From the NCBI RefSeq assembly GCF_000016525.1, contig NC_009515.1, positions 1,514,501 through 1,578,500 of the forward strand: 64,000 nt of DNA. Direction: 5' to 3'. A program made the position numbers and the translations under genes. The notes under the pieces were generated by a model that searched no databases, had not been told where the DNA came from, and saw only the letters and a program-made list of their open reading frames with translations. Source of the DNA: Methanobrevibacter smithii ATCC 35061 (GTDB taxonomy: Archaea; Methanobacteriota; Methanobacteria; Methanobacteriales; Methanobacteriaceae). Of this stretch, positions 1,998 through 11,169 are shown one piece after another; the stretch's first letter is position 1; each line of letters starts with the position of its first letter.

Positions 1998-2006
1998 TTG
2001 AATTTA

Positions 2007-4826
2007 ATGGTTGTCAAAGATATTGGGAAGCGATTCGTGTTTATAGTGTTGGCTGTGACATTAATTGCTTTAATGGCCGGTAATGTTTGTGCAGAAGAGG
2101 TTAATAATACAAATGTTGATACCGTAACACCAGTTAAATCAGTCAATGTTGAAGTTAATTATGAGTATACAGGCGATAATGCTAAGGTTATGCCTGATTT
2201 TTATATTTACTCAGGTGAAGATAAAATTGAATATAATAAAGAGCTGATTAACTCAAACAGTTATGTTCTCACATTTAATGATACTTTTTCTAAGGAATAT
2301 AATATAACTGCTATGACTGCAGGTTATGTTTCTCAAAGTCAAATCATTCTTAGTGATTCTATTATTTTTAATTTAAAGGCAAGTGATGCATATAAACTTG
2401 GTTATGATGTAACTGCCGATGCAGATAAGATATTGGATTTTAAAACTGCTGATGATATTCTTGTTATAACATCTGCAGGTGTTCCTAAATATAATAGCAG
2501 GACAAGTGAAGATGCTGTAGAAGCTATTTATAATTATCAGTATAAATATGGGCAGTCTATTCCGTATAATAATGTTTTAATGTTACGTCAGACTGCAGTT
2601 GACAATATTGATTTTGCATTTATTGTTAAAAGAGGAAACGAATTAAAAGCAGTAATTTATGAAAAGGCTTCTAAAACTCCTGTATATGTCGGAACTATTT
2701 CTGAAAACATGACTAGAGTTCAATGGAACAATTACTTCAATTCACTTTCCGGTGAAAATGCATGGGCTTTTGCTAGTTTAACTAACGCATGGGTTGCAGG
2801 TGCATCAAATATTATTCTTCAGGAAGCTGCATTCCACGGACATGTCTGTGAAGGTACTCTTGGAGGATACAGTATTGTACAGGCTTTATTAAAATATTAT
2901 TCTCCTGTCGGGGCTTCTGATTACTATGATATTTTAGGAGTTCCTGGAGGATCTGACGACGATGCAGTTATATACTTTTTAGATGCAACACCTGGTAAAA
3001 TAGGGGATGTTGGAATCAATATGAGATTAAATGGATATATTGGATTTAACACCACTTCTACTGGAGTGTCTGAAAATATGATTGGATTTATCAGATGGGG
3101 TGCTTCAAGCGGAACTTTAATTATTATGGAATATAATAAAAGTAAAATCACTGCCCTTTTTGAAAAAGAAACAGGTATTAATCCGAAAAGCGGAAGTTTG
3201 GAAGAGCTGAAATACAATACCTGGTGGGTTAAAAATATTAAAAATAATCCTGAAAAAATGGCAGATATTATTTATGAATTCGATAACTTAACCAGAGCTC
3301 AGTATTTTGAACTTATTGGTGACGGTAAAACTGTTGAAGCTCGCGGTTTAGATTTGGATTATATTCTTTATTTAAATTTACCTAAAGCTACCCGTAATAG
3401 CGCAAGTGGTTTGGATATTAGCTTGTCTGATAAGCAAATAGAACAAATTGGTGTTGATGCTACAAATTTAGCTATTTCAATTTTTAAAAATCAAAAAGGA
3501 ATTGATATTACTAAAGACATGGTGGATCTTTCTGTATTGACTTCTGCAGGTTATGTTTATTTGGGATCTTCTGATACTGTTTTAGCTAGAAATGGTATTA
3601 ATAAGGTTTTAGGTGCTACTTTAACCAGTGCTACTTTATTGCCAATACATACTCCGGCATACAAACCGTTATGGTTTGCTTATGTTTTGCGTTCACCTGA
3701 TTCTGATATTTTAGATACTGTATTTATCAAATATAATCCTGACGGAACTTTCTTTGTTGGCGAATTTAACGGCAGCAATGTGGCAGATGTTGGTATAAAT
3801 TCAATTAACAATTCTGCAACTGTTAAAGCTTTGTCTTCAAAATTTGCAATTGATGAAAGTTTCTTTGGTGTACAAAGTATTGGAAATGTTTGGATGTCTC
3901 ATCCGGAATTTGATCAATTGCTGTCTTTCCTATTCCACAGTCATGCATGTCCAGGTGTACAGCCAGGTTTCTTTATAACTGATTTTATTCAGGAAAATTT
4001 CCCGTTAGGTGAAAATGAATCTTATAAATATATAGGTTCAAGTATTTACTGTAAAGACGACAGTTTAATTTATTTGTTAGGTATTTCTCCAGGTATGGGT
4101 GATTATTTCCTACAAAAATTACCTGGTAATGAAACTGATTCCACTTATGCAGACGGTGCAAAAGATGAAGGAGTTCTTATTGTTTGGGACAGTAATTTAA
4201 ATATAGGCAGAGCAGTTATTATTACTTATACTTCTGCCAAACTTAAAAAAGTTGCTGTAAATACTCAAGATGCAAACAGACATGTTCAAATTCAGACATA
4301 TCTTGATATTTATGCTAAAAAAGATAATTCGTTGGTTATTTCTAAACCTACAGTTGAATCTAACGAAGAAAAATGGATTACTTATGAACAGTATTTGGAA
4401 TTGACTTCAGGTTCTAAAGACCTTAATGCATTATCTTATCTTAAGGGCCTTCCTAGTGTATCTAAAGAAGATTTATTAAACTCAATGAAAAACAACTCAG
4501 AAAGTAACTCTAATTCTAACACTAACACCAATTCCAATTCAGATTCAAATGCTAATGAAAATTCTCATTCATCAGCTAATGTGAATAATGTTGGTGTTTC
4601 CAGCAATTATAATAATATGCCGCAAAGCAGCAGTTATGATGTAGGCAACTCAAATGATGTGTTAGGATCAGATTCTGAAGTTTCTGAAGATGAGGGTAAA
4701 TCTTACGAAGTTTCTAAAAAATCCCCAGCTAAATCCATTAATCCGGATTATATGCCCTATGTAGTAATTGTCATATTAATTGTCGGAATATTAGTTGGTG
4801 CAGGTTATATGAAACACAGAAAATAG
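2007..4826 (+). CDS. Exported, membrane-anchored protein with two FmdE-like domains
   Basis: A 939-aa protein. The ATG at 2007 is chosen because AAGGAGGT (1991-1998) sits 8 bases upstream; the TTG at 1998 overlaps that site. A signal peptide covers residues ~1-30 (ending at NVCAEE). A first FmdE-like domain has HGHVCEG near residue 276 and a SDDDAVIYFLDATPGKIG segment, but it lacks the second Cys. A second domain near residue 643 has HSHACPG and YCKDDSLIYLLGISPGMG, so both metal-ligand clusters are kept. A Ser/Asn stalk and a C-terminal helix with MKHRK tail follow. Each domain is preceded by a segment like HypE-era cell-surface linkers of unknown fold. The arrangement suggests an extracellular metal- or pterin-binding protein. 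Strong paralogue of the gene at the left edge; the substrate is unknown. Confidence 0.85.
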   Translation: MVVKDIGKRFVFIVLAVTLIALMAGNVCAEEVNNTNVDTVTPVKSVNVEVNYEYTGDNAKVMPDFYIYSGEDKIEYNKELINSNSYVLTFNDTFSKEYNITAMTAGYVSQSQIILSDSIIFNLKASDAYKLGYDVTADADKILDFKTADDILVITSAGVPKYNSRTSEDAVEAIYNYQYKYGQSIPYNNVLMLRQTAVDNIDFAFIVKRGNELKAVIYEKASKTPVYVGTISENMTRVQWNNYFNSLSGENAWAFASLTNAWVAGASNIILQEAAFHGHVCEGTLGGYSIVQALLKYYSPVGASDYYDILGVPGGSDDDAVIYFLDATPGKIGDVGINMRLNGYIGFNTTSTGVSENMIGFIRWGASSGTLIIMEYNKSKITALFEKETGINPKSGSLEELKYNTWWVKNIKNNPEKMADIIYEFDNLTRAQYFELIGDGKTVEARGLDLDYILYLNLPKATRNSASGLDISLSDKQIEQIGVDATNLAISIFKNQKGIDITKDMVDLSVLTSAGYVYLGSSDTVLARNGINKVLGATLTSATLLPIHTPAYKPLWFAYVLRSPDSDILDTVFIKYNPDGTFFVGEFNGSNVADVGINSINNSATVKALSSKFAIDESFFGVQSIGNVWMSHPEFDQLLSFLFHSHACPGVQPGFFITDFIQENFPLGENESYKYIGSSIYCKDDSLIYLLGISPGMGDYFLQKLPGNETDSTYADGAKDEGVLIVWDSNLNIGRAVIITYTSAKLKKVAVNTQDANRHVQIQTYLDIYAKKDNSLVISKPTVESNEEKWITYEQYLELTSGSKDLNALSYLKGLPSVSKEDLLNSMKNNSESNSNSNTNTNSNSDSNANENSHSSANVNNVGVSSNYNNMPQSSSYDVGNSNDVLGSDSEVSEDEGKSYEVSKKSPAKSINPDYMPYVVIVILIVGILVGAGYMKHRK

Positions 4827-7696: not shown

Positions 7697-8380
7697 TTAA
7701 TCGTGTATACAGTAGCTTTGGAATCTGCAGCTTTTGCATTTGTTGGGATTTTTTGTTTTTATAAATGGTTTTTCTCCTTTGAACAATCCGTCCATTCTGT
7801 CAATCAGGAATTTAATTGATTTTTGAGCATCTTCGTCAAATTCTTCACTCCAGAATATGTTGTCAGTTCCTCTTTGTCTTAGGGCACCTACAATTTTTCT
7901 TTTGTCATTAATCATATTTTTAAATGCAAGACAATATGCTCTGACCTGGTTTATTGTTGAGCCGTATGCTTGGTTTCCGGGTTTGTCATCAATTATTACA
8001 AATTCATCAGGAGTCATCCATATTTCATCTATAAATCCTCTGATTCCATATTCCGGCGAAATTACAAACATTTCTCTGGTTACTGTTTTTTCAGTTTTTG
8101 AAAATTCAAGTACTTCGTCAAAGGTTGCAGGTGTTGCACTTTCCTGAAACTTCTCTTCCAGCTGGTTGTGCACTTTGGTTCCTGTAGTCATGGCCGGGGT
8201 TTCTCCTACTTTTACTCCCTGGAAGTACTGCAGATATAGCTGATACTCACAATATCCCTGTTGATTTAACCAGCTAATGGGGAAATTGTTTTTACCTTCT
8301 ATAATTTGGACACCTTTAATATTTGGATGGTATTTAATGTCCAGATTTTTGTTTAAATCAGTGATAATTTTGTTTTCCAT
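7697..8380 (-). CDS. Cas4-like PD-(D/E)XK nuclease with Fe-S cysteines, not near a CRISPR
   Basis: A 227-aa RecB/Cas4-family protein. It has an early Cys (GYCEYQLYLQY, ~42), the nuclease core with GFIDEIWMTPDEFVIIDDKPG (catalytic Asp and Asp/Lys, ~115-135) and a C-terminal CKSCRFQSYC triad (~216-225). Those four Cys are placed as the [4Fe-4S] ligands of Cas4. Cas4 trims protospacers with Cas1-Cas2, but no cas gene or repeat array is in the window, so this is one of the stand-alone Cas4-like nucleases, perhaps in DNA repair. It is transcribed away from the SPASM gene at 8482; the 101 bases between hold both promoters. Confidence 0.85.
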   Translation of the reverse strand: MENKIITDLNKNLDIKYHPNIKGVQIIEGKNNFPISWLNQQGYCEYQLYLQYFQGVKVGETPAMTTGTKVHNQLEEKFQESATPATFDEVLEFSKTEKTVTREMFVISPEYGIRGFIDEIWMTPDEFVIIDDKPGNQAYGSTINQVRAYCLAFKNMINDKRKIVGALRQRGTDNIFWSEEFDEDAQKSIKFLIDRMDGLFKGEKPFIKTKNPNKCKSCRFQSYCIHD

Positions 8381-8481
8381 ATGCAGTATTTTGTTGTTTT
8401 TAAAATATAATTCTTTAGTTAAATTTAAATATTATTATAACTTAATTTTATCTTGATTAATGAAATTTACATTTTGGAGAG

Positions 8482-9822
8482 ATGAAATTGAGTTTTACCA
8501 AAAATAATGATGTTGACAGTGAAGACATTGCAAATAAAGTACAGACTTTTGAAAATATAGTAGGTAGTTCTCTTGTTCAAAAATTAATCAAAGCAGCAAC
8601 TGTAAAATGTAAAAAGTGTGGAAAAAATCGTTTGGAAGTTGCAATTGATTATTATTTAGGTAAAAGGTCAGATATCTGTTTAAAATGTAGATTGCTTGTT
8701 CCTGTAATTAAAACAGTTGTCGGAAACAGCATCAGTATTTTTGGGATGTCAGAAAAAGAATTGATTGATTTGATGCAGGATTCATACTGGACTAAAGGAC
8801 TGGTCAGTGTAATAAAAGGGCTTGGAGAAACAGGAATTGAAAAGCCGTTTGTTCCTGCAGCACCTCTTCAGGTTCAGTGGGATTTAACAGACAGTGAACT
8901 GTGCTTTGAGCAGATACATGATGAAATAGATAAATTAGCTGATTTTGGAGTTGCACACATTACATTTATCGGAGAAGTTGATTCAACATTCATTAAACAT
9001 GCAGATGATGTTGGAATGTATCCCTGCTTAACAGGCAATGGATTTAATCTGGAAAAAATTGATAAATATGTTGATGCAGGAGTTAAATTTGTAGACATTT
9101 CTCTGGAAAGCGTTAATCCCCAAACTCATAATGAAAAATTGGGAATTGATAATTTATGGGAAAATGCAGTTGAATCCATTAAAAAGTACAATGAAAAGGA
9201 TGTTTATGTGGAGGTTTCAACAGAAGTGACTCAGGATAATCTTTTGGAAATTCCTCAAATAATCGAGCTTTTAAAGCAGTTAGGTGTCGGATGGTATAAA
9301 CTGGATGTTGTCAATGGAGATTTGACTGATAATCAGAGACTGGAACTATTTAAGCTAATTTATATGGAAAATATTAACGGGGATATGCAGATACTAACCA
9401 ATGATCCTCAGTTGGGGGATGTTGCCTCAACAATCATGTGCAATGGAATGAATATGATTCCAACTCATTTTTTTAATTTGGACTATGACAAACAAGCAAT
9501 GAAAGAACTTGGAAATTATATTGGAAGCTGCGGAGCTGGAAGATTTTACATGGCAATAGATGGAAAAGGGAATATTTATCCATGCGAATATTTCCGTGAT
9601 TTGAAAATAGCCAATATCCGTGATGATTTGGACACTATGTGGCTAAATAATGATATCTTATTGAAGCTTAGAAATAGAAGCCTTTTAAAAGGAAAGTGCG
9701 GATGCTGTGAATCCAAATATATATGTGGGGGATGTCGTAAAAGAGCATTTGCGGAAAATAATGATTATTTGGCTGAAGATAAGAACTGTTTAAAAGATAT
9801 TAAGGAAAATCTTTTGGATTAA
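8482..9822 (+). CDS. SPASM-domain radical-SAM homologue lacking the CX3CX2C cluster motif
   Basis: A 446-aa protein. Residues 43-69 carry a four-Cys metal site (CxxC...CxxC). At 129-145 the protein reads LQVQWDLTDSELCFEQ, where radical-SAM enzymes have W-x-L-T-x-x-C-N-x-x-C-x-x-C. Only the last Cys (141) remains; the segment is shortened without breaking the frame. The TIM-barrel pattern continues (HITFIG-E in place of the usual GGEP; FVDISLES). The C-terminal SPASM domain is complete (~345-440): CGAGRFYMAIDGKGNIYPCEYF then GKCGCCESKYICGGCRKR...KNC. Such proteins usually modify peptides or cofactors; without the SAM cluster this one may be inactive or a binding protein. GGAGAG lies only 0-2 bases before the ATG but 6-8 before an in-frame TTG at 8488, which may be the true start. 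Confidence 0.8.
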   Translation: MKLSFTKNNDVDSEDIANKVQTFENIVGSSLVQKLIKAATVKCKKCGKNRLEVAIDYYLGKRSDICLKCRLLVPVIKTVVGNSISIFGMSEKELIDLMQDSYWTKGLVSVIKGLGETGIEKPFVPAAPLQVQWDLTDSELCFEQIHDEIDKLADFGVAHITFIGEVDSTFIKHADDVGMYPCLTGNGFNLEKIDKYVDAGVKFVDISLESVNPQTHNEKLGIDNLWENAVESIKKYNEKDVYVEVSTEVTQDNLLEIPQIIELLKQLGVGWYKLDVVNGDLTDNQRLELFKLIYMENINGDMQILTNDPQLGDVASTIMCNGMNMIPTHFFNLDYDKQAMKELGNYIGSCGAGRFYMAIDGKGNIYPCEYFRDLKIANIRDDLDTMWLNNDILLKLRNRSLLKGKCGCCESKYICGGCRKRAFAENNDYLAEDKNCLKDIKENLLD

Positions 9823-9879: not shown

Positions 9880-11169
9880 ATGAGTGATATAACATTTGAT
9901 GATTTTGAAATTTTAGCAGAAATTAAAAAATCAATAAAAGAAATGGGTTTTGAAGAGCCAAGTCCAATACAAGAATTAACTATTCCTGAGGCTCTTAAAG
10001 GAATTGATATAATAGGACAAGCACAAACAGGTACTGGAAAGACCCTGGCATTTACTGTTCCTTTGCTTCAAAAGATTTTTATTCCTGATAATTCTCCCCA
10101 GGCTATTGTTTTATGCCCTACAAGGGAGTTATGTATTCAGGTAGCTGGTGAAATTGGTAAAATAGGTTCACACATGAAAAAACTTAAAATTTTGCCGGTT
10201 TATGGTGGTCAGCCTATTGGAAGACAAATTAGAGTATTAAATAAAGGTGTTCATGTAGTTATCGGAACTCCAGGTCGTGTTTTGGATCATATTGAACGTA
10301 AAACTTTAGACTTAAAAGGAATTTCAACTGTAGTATTGGATGAAGCAGATGAAATGTTGGATATGGGTTTCAGAGAGGATATTGAAAAAATATTAAGACA
10401 CACTCCAAAGCAAAGGCAAACACTGCTTTTCTCAGCTACAATGCCTAAGGAAATTAAAAGAATTACTAAATTCTATCAGAAAAAGCCTAAACATTTAAAG
10501 GTAGCTCAAAGCCAGATGACTGTTCCGGAAATAACTCAGTACTATTTTGAAACAAAGGAAAAAGACAAACTTGAAAATTTAACTCGTTTGATTGATGTTT
10601 ATGATGTTAATTTAGGTTTGGTATTTTGTAACACTAAAAAAAGAGTTGACTGGGTTGCTAAAAACTTGAGAAACAGAGGATATGCAGCTGAGGGAATTCA
10701 TGGAGACATGAATCAGAAATCCCGTGATAAGGTTATGAACAAATTCCGTAACGGAAATATTGAAATTCTGATAGCTACTGATGTTGCTGCACGTGGAATC
10801 GATGTACCTAATGTTGAAGTGGTTGTTAACTATGATGTTCCTCAAAATCCTGAATACTATGTTCATAGAATCGGAAGGACAGGCAGGGCAGGTAATATGG
10901 GGTATGCATTTACCTTTGTTGCAGGTAAAGAAATCTATAGTTTAAGAACCATTAAAAAAGTAACCAAATCCAAAATCAAACAAAGAAAAATTCCGTCATA
11001 TAAGGAAATGGAATCTATTAAAAATACTCAGCTAATGAACAGCGTTAAAAACTCTATTGAAAAGGATAATTTGGAAAAATACGTAAAATTAGTTGAAGGA
11101 GCTATGGAAGAAGATTTTGATTCTGTAGACATAGCTGCTGCATTATTAAAAATGGTTAAGGAAAATTAA
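9880..11169 (+). CDS. DEAD-box RNA helicase
   Basis: A 429-aa ATP-dependent RNA helicase with all core motifs in order: the Q-motif region (FDDFEI...GFEEPSPIQ), Walker A AQTGTGKT (~46-53), PTRELC, TPGRVLDH, DEADEMLDMGF (~150), SAT, then in the second RecA domain LVFCNTKKR, ATDVAARGID and HRIGRTGRAG. The C-terminus adds about 70 residues without an RGG tail. Relatives (DeaD/CshA type) act in ribosome assembly and mRNA turnover, often raised in the cold. It is monocistronic and convergent with the HTH gene: its stop codon abuts that of the minus-strand gene with no bases between. Confidence 0.95.
   Translation: MSDITFDDFEILAEIKKSIKEMGFEEPSPIQELTIPEALKGIDIIGQAQTGTGKTLAFTVPLLQKIFIPDNSPQAIVLCPTRELCIQVAGEIGKIGSHMKKLKILPVYGGQPIGRQIRVLNKGVHVVIGTPGRVLDHIERKTLDLKGISTVVLDEADEMLDMGFREDIEKILRHTPKQRQTLLFSATMPKEIKRITKFYQKKPKHLKVAQSQMTVPEITQYYFETKEKDKLENLTRLIDVYDVNLGLVFCNTKKRVDWVAKNLRNRGYAAEGIHGDMNQKSRDKVMNKFRNGNIEILIATDVAARGIDVPNVEVVVNYDVPQNPEYYVHRIGRTGRAGNMGYAFTFVAGKEIYSLRTIKKVTKSKIKQRKIPSYKEMESIKNTQLMNSVKNSIEKDNLEKYVKLVEGAMEEDFDSVDIAAALLKMVKEN

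Follow-up and report, generated by a model that had tools for sequence, protein, structure and literature searches.

A probable pseudoenzyme of Methanobrevibacter smithii descended from the lipid-cross-linking radical SAM enzyme Gms

Methanobrevibacter smithii is the principal methanogenic archaeon of the human gut. GMGT lipids serve as biomarkers, and their producers are predicted from the presence of gms homologues. The GMGT synthase (Gms) of Methanothermococcus okinawensis, METOK_RS04425, converts GDGT-0 into GMGT-0 by cross-linking, both in vivo and in vitro, and its N-terminal domain and bridging region have been proposed to bind the substrate (PMC11186832). M. thermautotrophicus is likewise a GMGT maker with a Gms homologue (PMC11186832). 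In the published census, gms homologues were called at thresholds of E<1e-50, >30% and >420 aa. Tetraether synthase (Tes/GDGT-MAS; 7tol, 7tom), also a radical SAM enzyme, acts in this lipid pathway as well and has other auxiliary domains.

The window analyzed here, a 64,000-nucleotide stretch of the M. smithii genome, carries on its plus strand an open reading frame (ORF) of 446 aa at 8482-9822, present as a single copy in the genome (one contig, 1,853,160 bases). Its product is a direct homologue of the M. okinawensis enzyme (31% identity, E=1e-57 by BLASTP), with the helical N-terminal domain, barrel, bridging hairpin and SPASM Cys residues in the same order. Unlike that enzyme, it is without the CX3CX2C, GGEP and NFIPTG motifs, and SAM cleavage is not expected. 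The ORF very probably encodes a Gms-derived protein that is catalytically dead. The features of the locus are as follows.

7697..8380, minus strand: Cas4/PD-(D/E)XK-like nuclease, divergent neighbor and marker of the conserved gms slot (synteny)
8381..8481, plus strand: upstream region with an AT-rich TATA-like stretch and GGAG ahead of the ATG (98/101 identical to the sister species)
8482..9822, plus strand: very probable Gms-derived pseudoenzyme, 446 aa, with a radical SAM/SPASM fold and no radical-SAM cluster site (search, tree, synteny, model)
8482..8853, plus strand: N-terminal helical domain, aa 1-124, with C43/C46/C66/C69; 12/13 family-conserved residues kept (alignment, model)
8854..9396, plus strand: degenerate radical SAM barrel, aa 125-305; 25/62 conserved residues kept, 15 deleted (alignment, model)
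8889..8890, plus strand: site of an 18-residue in-frame deletion between T136 and D137, CX3CX2C lost; gap placement approximate (alignment)
8988..8989, plus strand: site of a 6-residue deletion after the GGEP position, IGEVDST/FIK (alignment)
9045..9046, plus strand: site of a 3-residue deletion after TNG, GNGF/NLEK (alignment)
9303..9304, plus strand: site of a 10-residue deletion, YNFIPTG lost, YKL/DVV (alignment)
9397..9522, plus strand: bridging region/hairpin, aa 306-347; 11/14 conserved residues kept, with IPTHFFN (alignment)
9523..9819, plus strand: SPASM domain, aa 348-446; C350, C368, C406, C409, C415, C418 and C436 kept (Pfam, alignment)
9880..11169, plus strand: DEAD-box helicase, downstream neighbor and marker of the gms slot (synteny; also in G108)

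Pseudo SPASM proteins are already known, NCBIfam holding at least one such family (TIGR04347); the present one is derived from a lipid-modifying member. By its family name, the haloarchaeal TIGR04347 pseudo-SAM/SPASM family is also made up of archaeal SPASM proteins without a working radical SAM site. However, at 85.8 bits the M. smithii protein falls short of the family's cut-off of 525, and it belongs to a separate lineage, which implies an independent loss. The nearest curated NCBIfam models are AhbD, NirJ2 and TIGR04053; the SPASM region aligns with these, but the scores (104-107 bits) are far below the cut-offs of 395-500 and the matches leave the Gms-type N-terminal domain uncovered. A literature search of limited phrasing found no papers on pseudo-radical-SAM proteins.

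Profile and protein searches recovered intact Gms-like relatives across archaea, those within Methanobacteriales being 38-52% identical to the 446-aa protein. The matches spread over Euryarchaeota, TACK, DPANN and Asgard, in line with the published range of Gms, and the match in a putative M. thermautotrophicus genome falls in the same family. Intact Methanobrevibacter proteins are 42-44% identical to the M. okinawensis enzyme over their full length and have the same order of N-terminal domain, barrel, bridge and SPASM domain. One of the intact relatives recovered (L163) fits M. okinawensis Gms by its published residues, with C123, C127, C370, C372, C438, F326, N351 and S334 in agreement and C130 as the third motif Cys; published E346, which corresponds to Ala, is the sole disagreement (PMC11186832).

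In the tree, the M. smithii form and that of a sister species (genome G011) cluster with intact genes of two related Methanobrevibacter genomes, G030 and G108, at a UFBoot of 100; the stem of the two pseudo forms is long (0.77 vs 0.13-0.14). In a wider tree with other SPASM proteins, the M. smithii protein stays among Gms-like sequences, the deepest node being weakly supported. Intact gms holds the same slot in G030 and G108, which confirms orthology. The divergent Cas4-like nuclease adjoins the gene in the window, G011, G030 and G108, and the DEAD helicase lies 3′ of it in the window, G011 and G108; in G030, the interval from gms to the next shared gene showed no such ORF. Further neighbors are common to the locus in the window genome, G030 and G108. 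On homology, tree and gene order together, the ORF is the syntenic, vertically inherited orthologue of gms in the M. smithii lineage. By descent the protein thus belongs to the Gms lineage, and by its motifs it is neither a Gms enzyme nor a radical SAM enzyme. The neighboring genes do not point to lipid metabolism. A single-sequence scan of genome contigs gave no match, its patterns probably having come from stretches specific to the pseudo form, whereas an alignment-based scan did match. No gms relative was found in viral contigs, and carriage of gms by a virus is not supported.

The preliminary description of this DNA had reported the ORF, its WDLTDSELCFE sequence, the replacement of GGEP by IGEV and a full SPASM Cys set, all of which the ORF call, alignment and Pfam search bear out. 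It had put the loss at about five residues and two Cys, which is too low: 18 residues and all three cluster Cys are missing, so that CX3CX2C is absent, and three further deletions follow. Pfam Radical_SAM matches only profile positions 31-144, against 2-165 in the nearest intact relative. The GGEP-type SAM-binding motif reads IGEV here and IGKT in the sister species and is followed by the 6-residue deletion. Together with GGEP, the TNG and NFIPTG motifs, the conserved Arg of the FRG motif (R246, L045 numbering) and the cluster loop are gone or changed, and 37 of the 62 barrel residues conserved among 60 intact relatives are lost. A comparison of two predicted models places each of the four deletions between a barrel strand and the next helix, positions that, from the known fold, would make up the catalytic face. 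With the cluster, GGEP, TNG and NFIPTG loops lost, the protein is therefore expected to hold no SAM-cleaving cluster, and it is strongly inferred from the sequence that it neither cleaves SAM nor forms GMGT.

All four deletions are common to the sister species (89.5% protein identity) in the same gene neighborhood, which rules out an assembly error or a local mutation. The motif is kept in 79/79 full-length named relatives and, besides two contig fragments, is missing from only two of 183 distinct Gms-like ORFs, those of M. smithii and its sister. The refuting observation named at the outset, that other strains keep CX3CX2C, thus applies at this locus to the more distant species, whereas the sister lacks the motif as well, a pattern indicating a fixed, lineage-specific loss.

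What survives lies outside the barrel. The SPASM domain scores above the PF13186 cut-off and has 7/7 family-invariant Cys in the seven-Cys pattern. It keeps 29 of the 44 residues conserved in the 60 intact relatives; since the other 15 are lost, its clusters may not assemble. At the N-terminus, the four Cys noticed earlier are indeed present at 43, 46, 66 and 69, yet they were not added: C43, C66 and C69 are invariant in 60/60 intact relatives, and the C46 column is Cys in 24 and Asp in 36. The site is thus ancestral. The same columns (C, C or D, C, C) in these 60 Gms-like proteins are absent from the tested M. okinawensis Gms, and may represent an undescribed metal site of a large Gms subgroup. 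The AlphaFold model of the 446-aa protein (pLDDT 86.8, pTM 0.87) retains a partial TIM-barrel fold, and its best PDB matches by Foldseek are PqqE and SuiB.

Several measures indicate that the gene has been selected since the loss. Between M. smithii and its sister, the one species pair available, NG86 gives a dN/dS of 0.149 (bootstrap 0.097-0.222) and YN00 one of 0.111, values comparable to the 0.08-0.18 of intact gms pairs. A simple neutral simulation at the same nucleotide divergence predicted 4.4 stops and a protein identity of 81%; the observed values are 0 and 89.5%. The 101 upstream bases are 97% identical between the species, compared with 91% for the gene. Within the pseudo pair, the barrel, with a dN/dS of 0.24, is under the weakest constraint of all domains, and aa 50-116 of the N-terminal domain show zero changes. 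The N-terminal domain evolves at least as fast as the barrel in most intact pairs and more slowly in the pseudo pair: N-terminal and barrel changes number 6:24 in the latter and 106:116 in pooled intact pairs (Fisher p=0.005, on 30 changes in the pseudo pair). The pseudo form occurs in two species only, so dN/dS rests on a single pair and the domain shift on those 30 changes. Taken together, dN/dS, simulation, upstream identity and domain shift indicate a protein that is under purifying selection and not a dying gene, in which the barrel is no longer the most constrained part and constraint appears to have moved to the N-terminal domain.

It is proposed that in-frame deletions shaved the catalytic face of the barrel before M. 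smithii and its sister split, turning gms into a pseudoenzyme that consists of the N-terminal helical domain with its Cys site, the bridging hairpin, the full SPASM Cys set and what is left of the barrel. The protein would still fold, with the N-terminal and SPASM Cys carrying metal or Fe-S clusters, and the retained N-terminal domain and bridge may bind either a partner protein or a lipid (tetraether or isoprenoid) without reacting with it. Its role might then be that of a scaffold, sensor, carrier or electron-transfer protein in membrane-lipid (tetraether) metabolism. The reading that a gms orthologue became a pseudoenzyme, fixed before the species split and kept for lipid binding and/or Fe-S or metal scaffolding, is probably correct. 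The narrower reading, that a lipid-cross-linking radical SAM enzyme was exapted into a non-catalytic Fe-S and lipid-binding sensor, carrier or scaffold, is put forward tentatively. A pseudoenzyme that binds peptide or metal had been suggested from the start; the fixed lesions, purifying selection and missing SAM and cluster motifs agree with the pseudoenzyme, but a lipid is the likelier ligand than a peptide because the parent enzyme is a GMGT synthase.

If the gene were a relict, its gms function lost and its open frame decaying slowly with no present role, the long stem branch, the 37 lost barrel residues and a protein that evolves faster than most of its neighbors would all be accounted for. 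This is unlikely given dN/dS of 0.11-0.15 with an upper bootstrap bound of 0.22, zero stops where about four would arise under neutral change, deletions that are all in frame and the near-identical upstream region. A protein kept by selection might instead still be an active radical SAM enzyme with relocated cluster ligands, as also raised in the preliminary description, or with another cofactor. The Cys that are new against the family consensus are few (C141, C182 in barrel strand 3, C320 and C408), and the last three are common to both species. C141 falls in a column where relatives have T/S/N and the sister has Ser; as aligned, it is not a remnant of a cluster Cys. With the SAM-binding motifs and the entire cluster loop also gone or changed and the barrel the least constrained domain, such an enzyme is very improbable.

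Retention of the substrate-side domains could also mean that the protein serves an active Gms as its dedicated regulator or as a decoy subunit, and the sister species does have, beside the pseudo form, an intact gms at another locus. However, the M. smithii reference genome keeps the pseudo form without an intact gms; a protein search listed other radical SAM matches and no second, intact copy. A regulatory role is thus possible in the sister, because it also has an intact gms, but M. smithii PS offers no such possibility. In the tree, that intact copy falls with another genus, and a phage-type integrase is encoded in the region around it, so the copy is probably a later arrival and the pair did not co-evolve; as a general account, the regulator is also unlikely. 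The lipid reading itself would be wrong if the intact relatives were a different SPASM family and not GMGT synthases. No curated family names them, all matches being below cut-off, and the tested M. okinawensis enzyme has no N-terminal Cys site. Against this stand their full-length identity and domain order shared with that enzyme, a spread across archaea as published for Gms, and the match in the family from M. thermautotrophicus, a GMGT maker (PMC11186832) whose genome is putatively identified here. A separate family is accordingly quite improbable, and the pseudoenzyme of Gms descent remains the preferred reading.

The published lipids of M. smithii PS comprise archaeol and some caldarchaeol, with no H-shaped caldarchaeol reported (PMC12281867). 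GDGT-1 or H-shaped caldarchaeol appeared in traces in strain ALI only, and H-shaped caldarchaeol was not reported for WWM1085 (M. intestini; PMC12281867). Tes is a separate, intact gene in M. smithii (L253 vs 7tol, E=4.9e-163), and the barrel of an intact relative of the pseudo form can be superposed on 7tom (2.8 A, 219 columns). This lipid profile, with tetraether synthase present, is consistent with PS having no working Gms. The M. smithii protein, at 446 aa, 31% and a pairwise BLASTP E of 1e-57, is at or near the census thresholds for gms, yet GMGT is not expected of it. The locus also offers a natural in-place series of intact orthologue, pseudo form, and pseudo form with a probably re-acquired intact copy. 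Through this series, the radical SAM/SPASM scaffold can be tested without radical chemistry in a species central to human gut methane.

The second gms of the sister species (L165, 8928-10367) is intact, adjoins a MarR gene and is closest to a gene of another genus (65%). Its flanks have counterparts in M. smithii, where both MarR and gms are missing from between them; later re-acquisition by the sister would be the simplest reading. In the putative M. thermautotrophicus dH genome (G047), gms (L170, 4470-5830) is split over two overlapping frames, through a frameshift or a sequencing error, and a B12-type radical SAM gene begins a few bases past it. TetR-type regulators adjoin intact gms in three genomes (L169, 7257-7901; L170, 5916-6527; L168, 7663-8244), which suggests regulated GMGT synthesis. 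M. smithii encodes, near 366030 (L254), a B12-type radical SAM protein that may be a lipid-modifying partner; it shares 74% identity with a protein encoded near gms in G133 and 38% with the one 3′ of gms in L170. Elsewhere in the window, the proteins of 16-999 and 1998-4826 both match a single 947-aa protein in the sister species, the former 95% identical to part of it and the latter about 62% over its length; a cell-surface gene seems to have been duplicated or recombined here.
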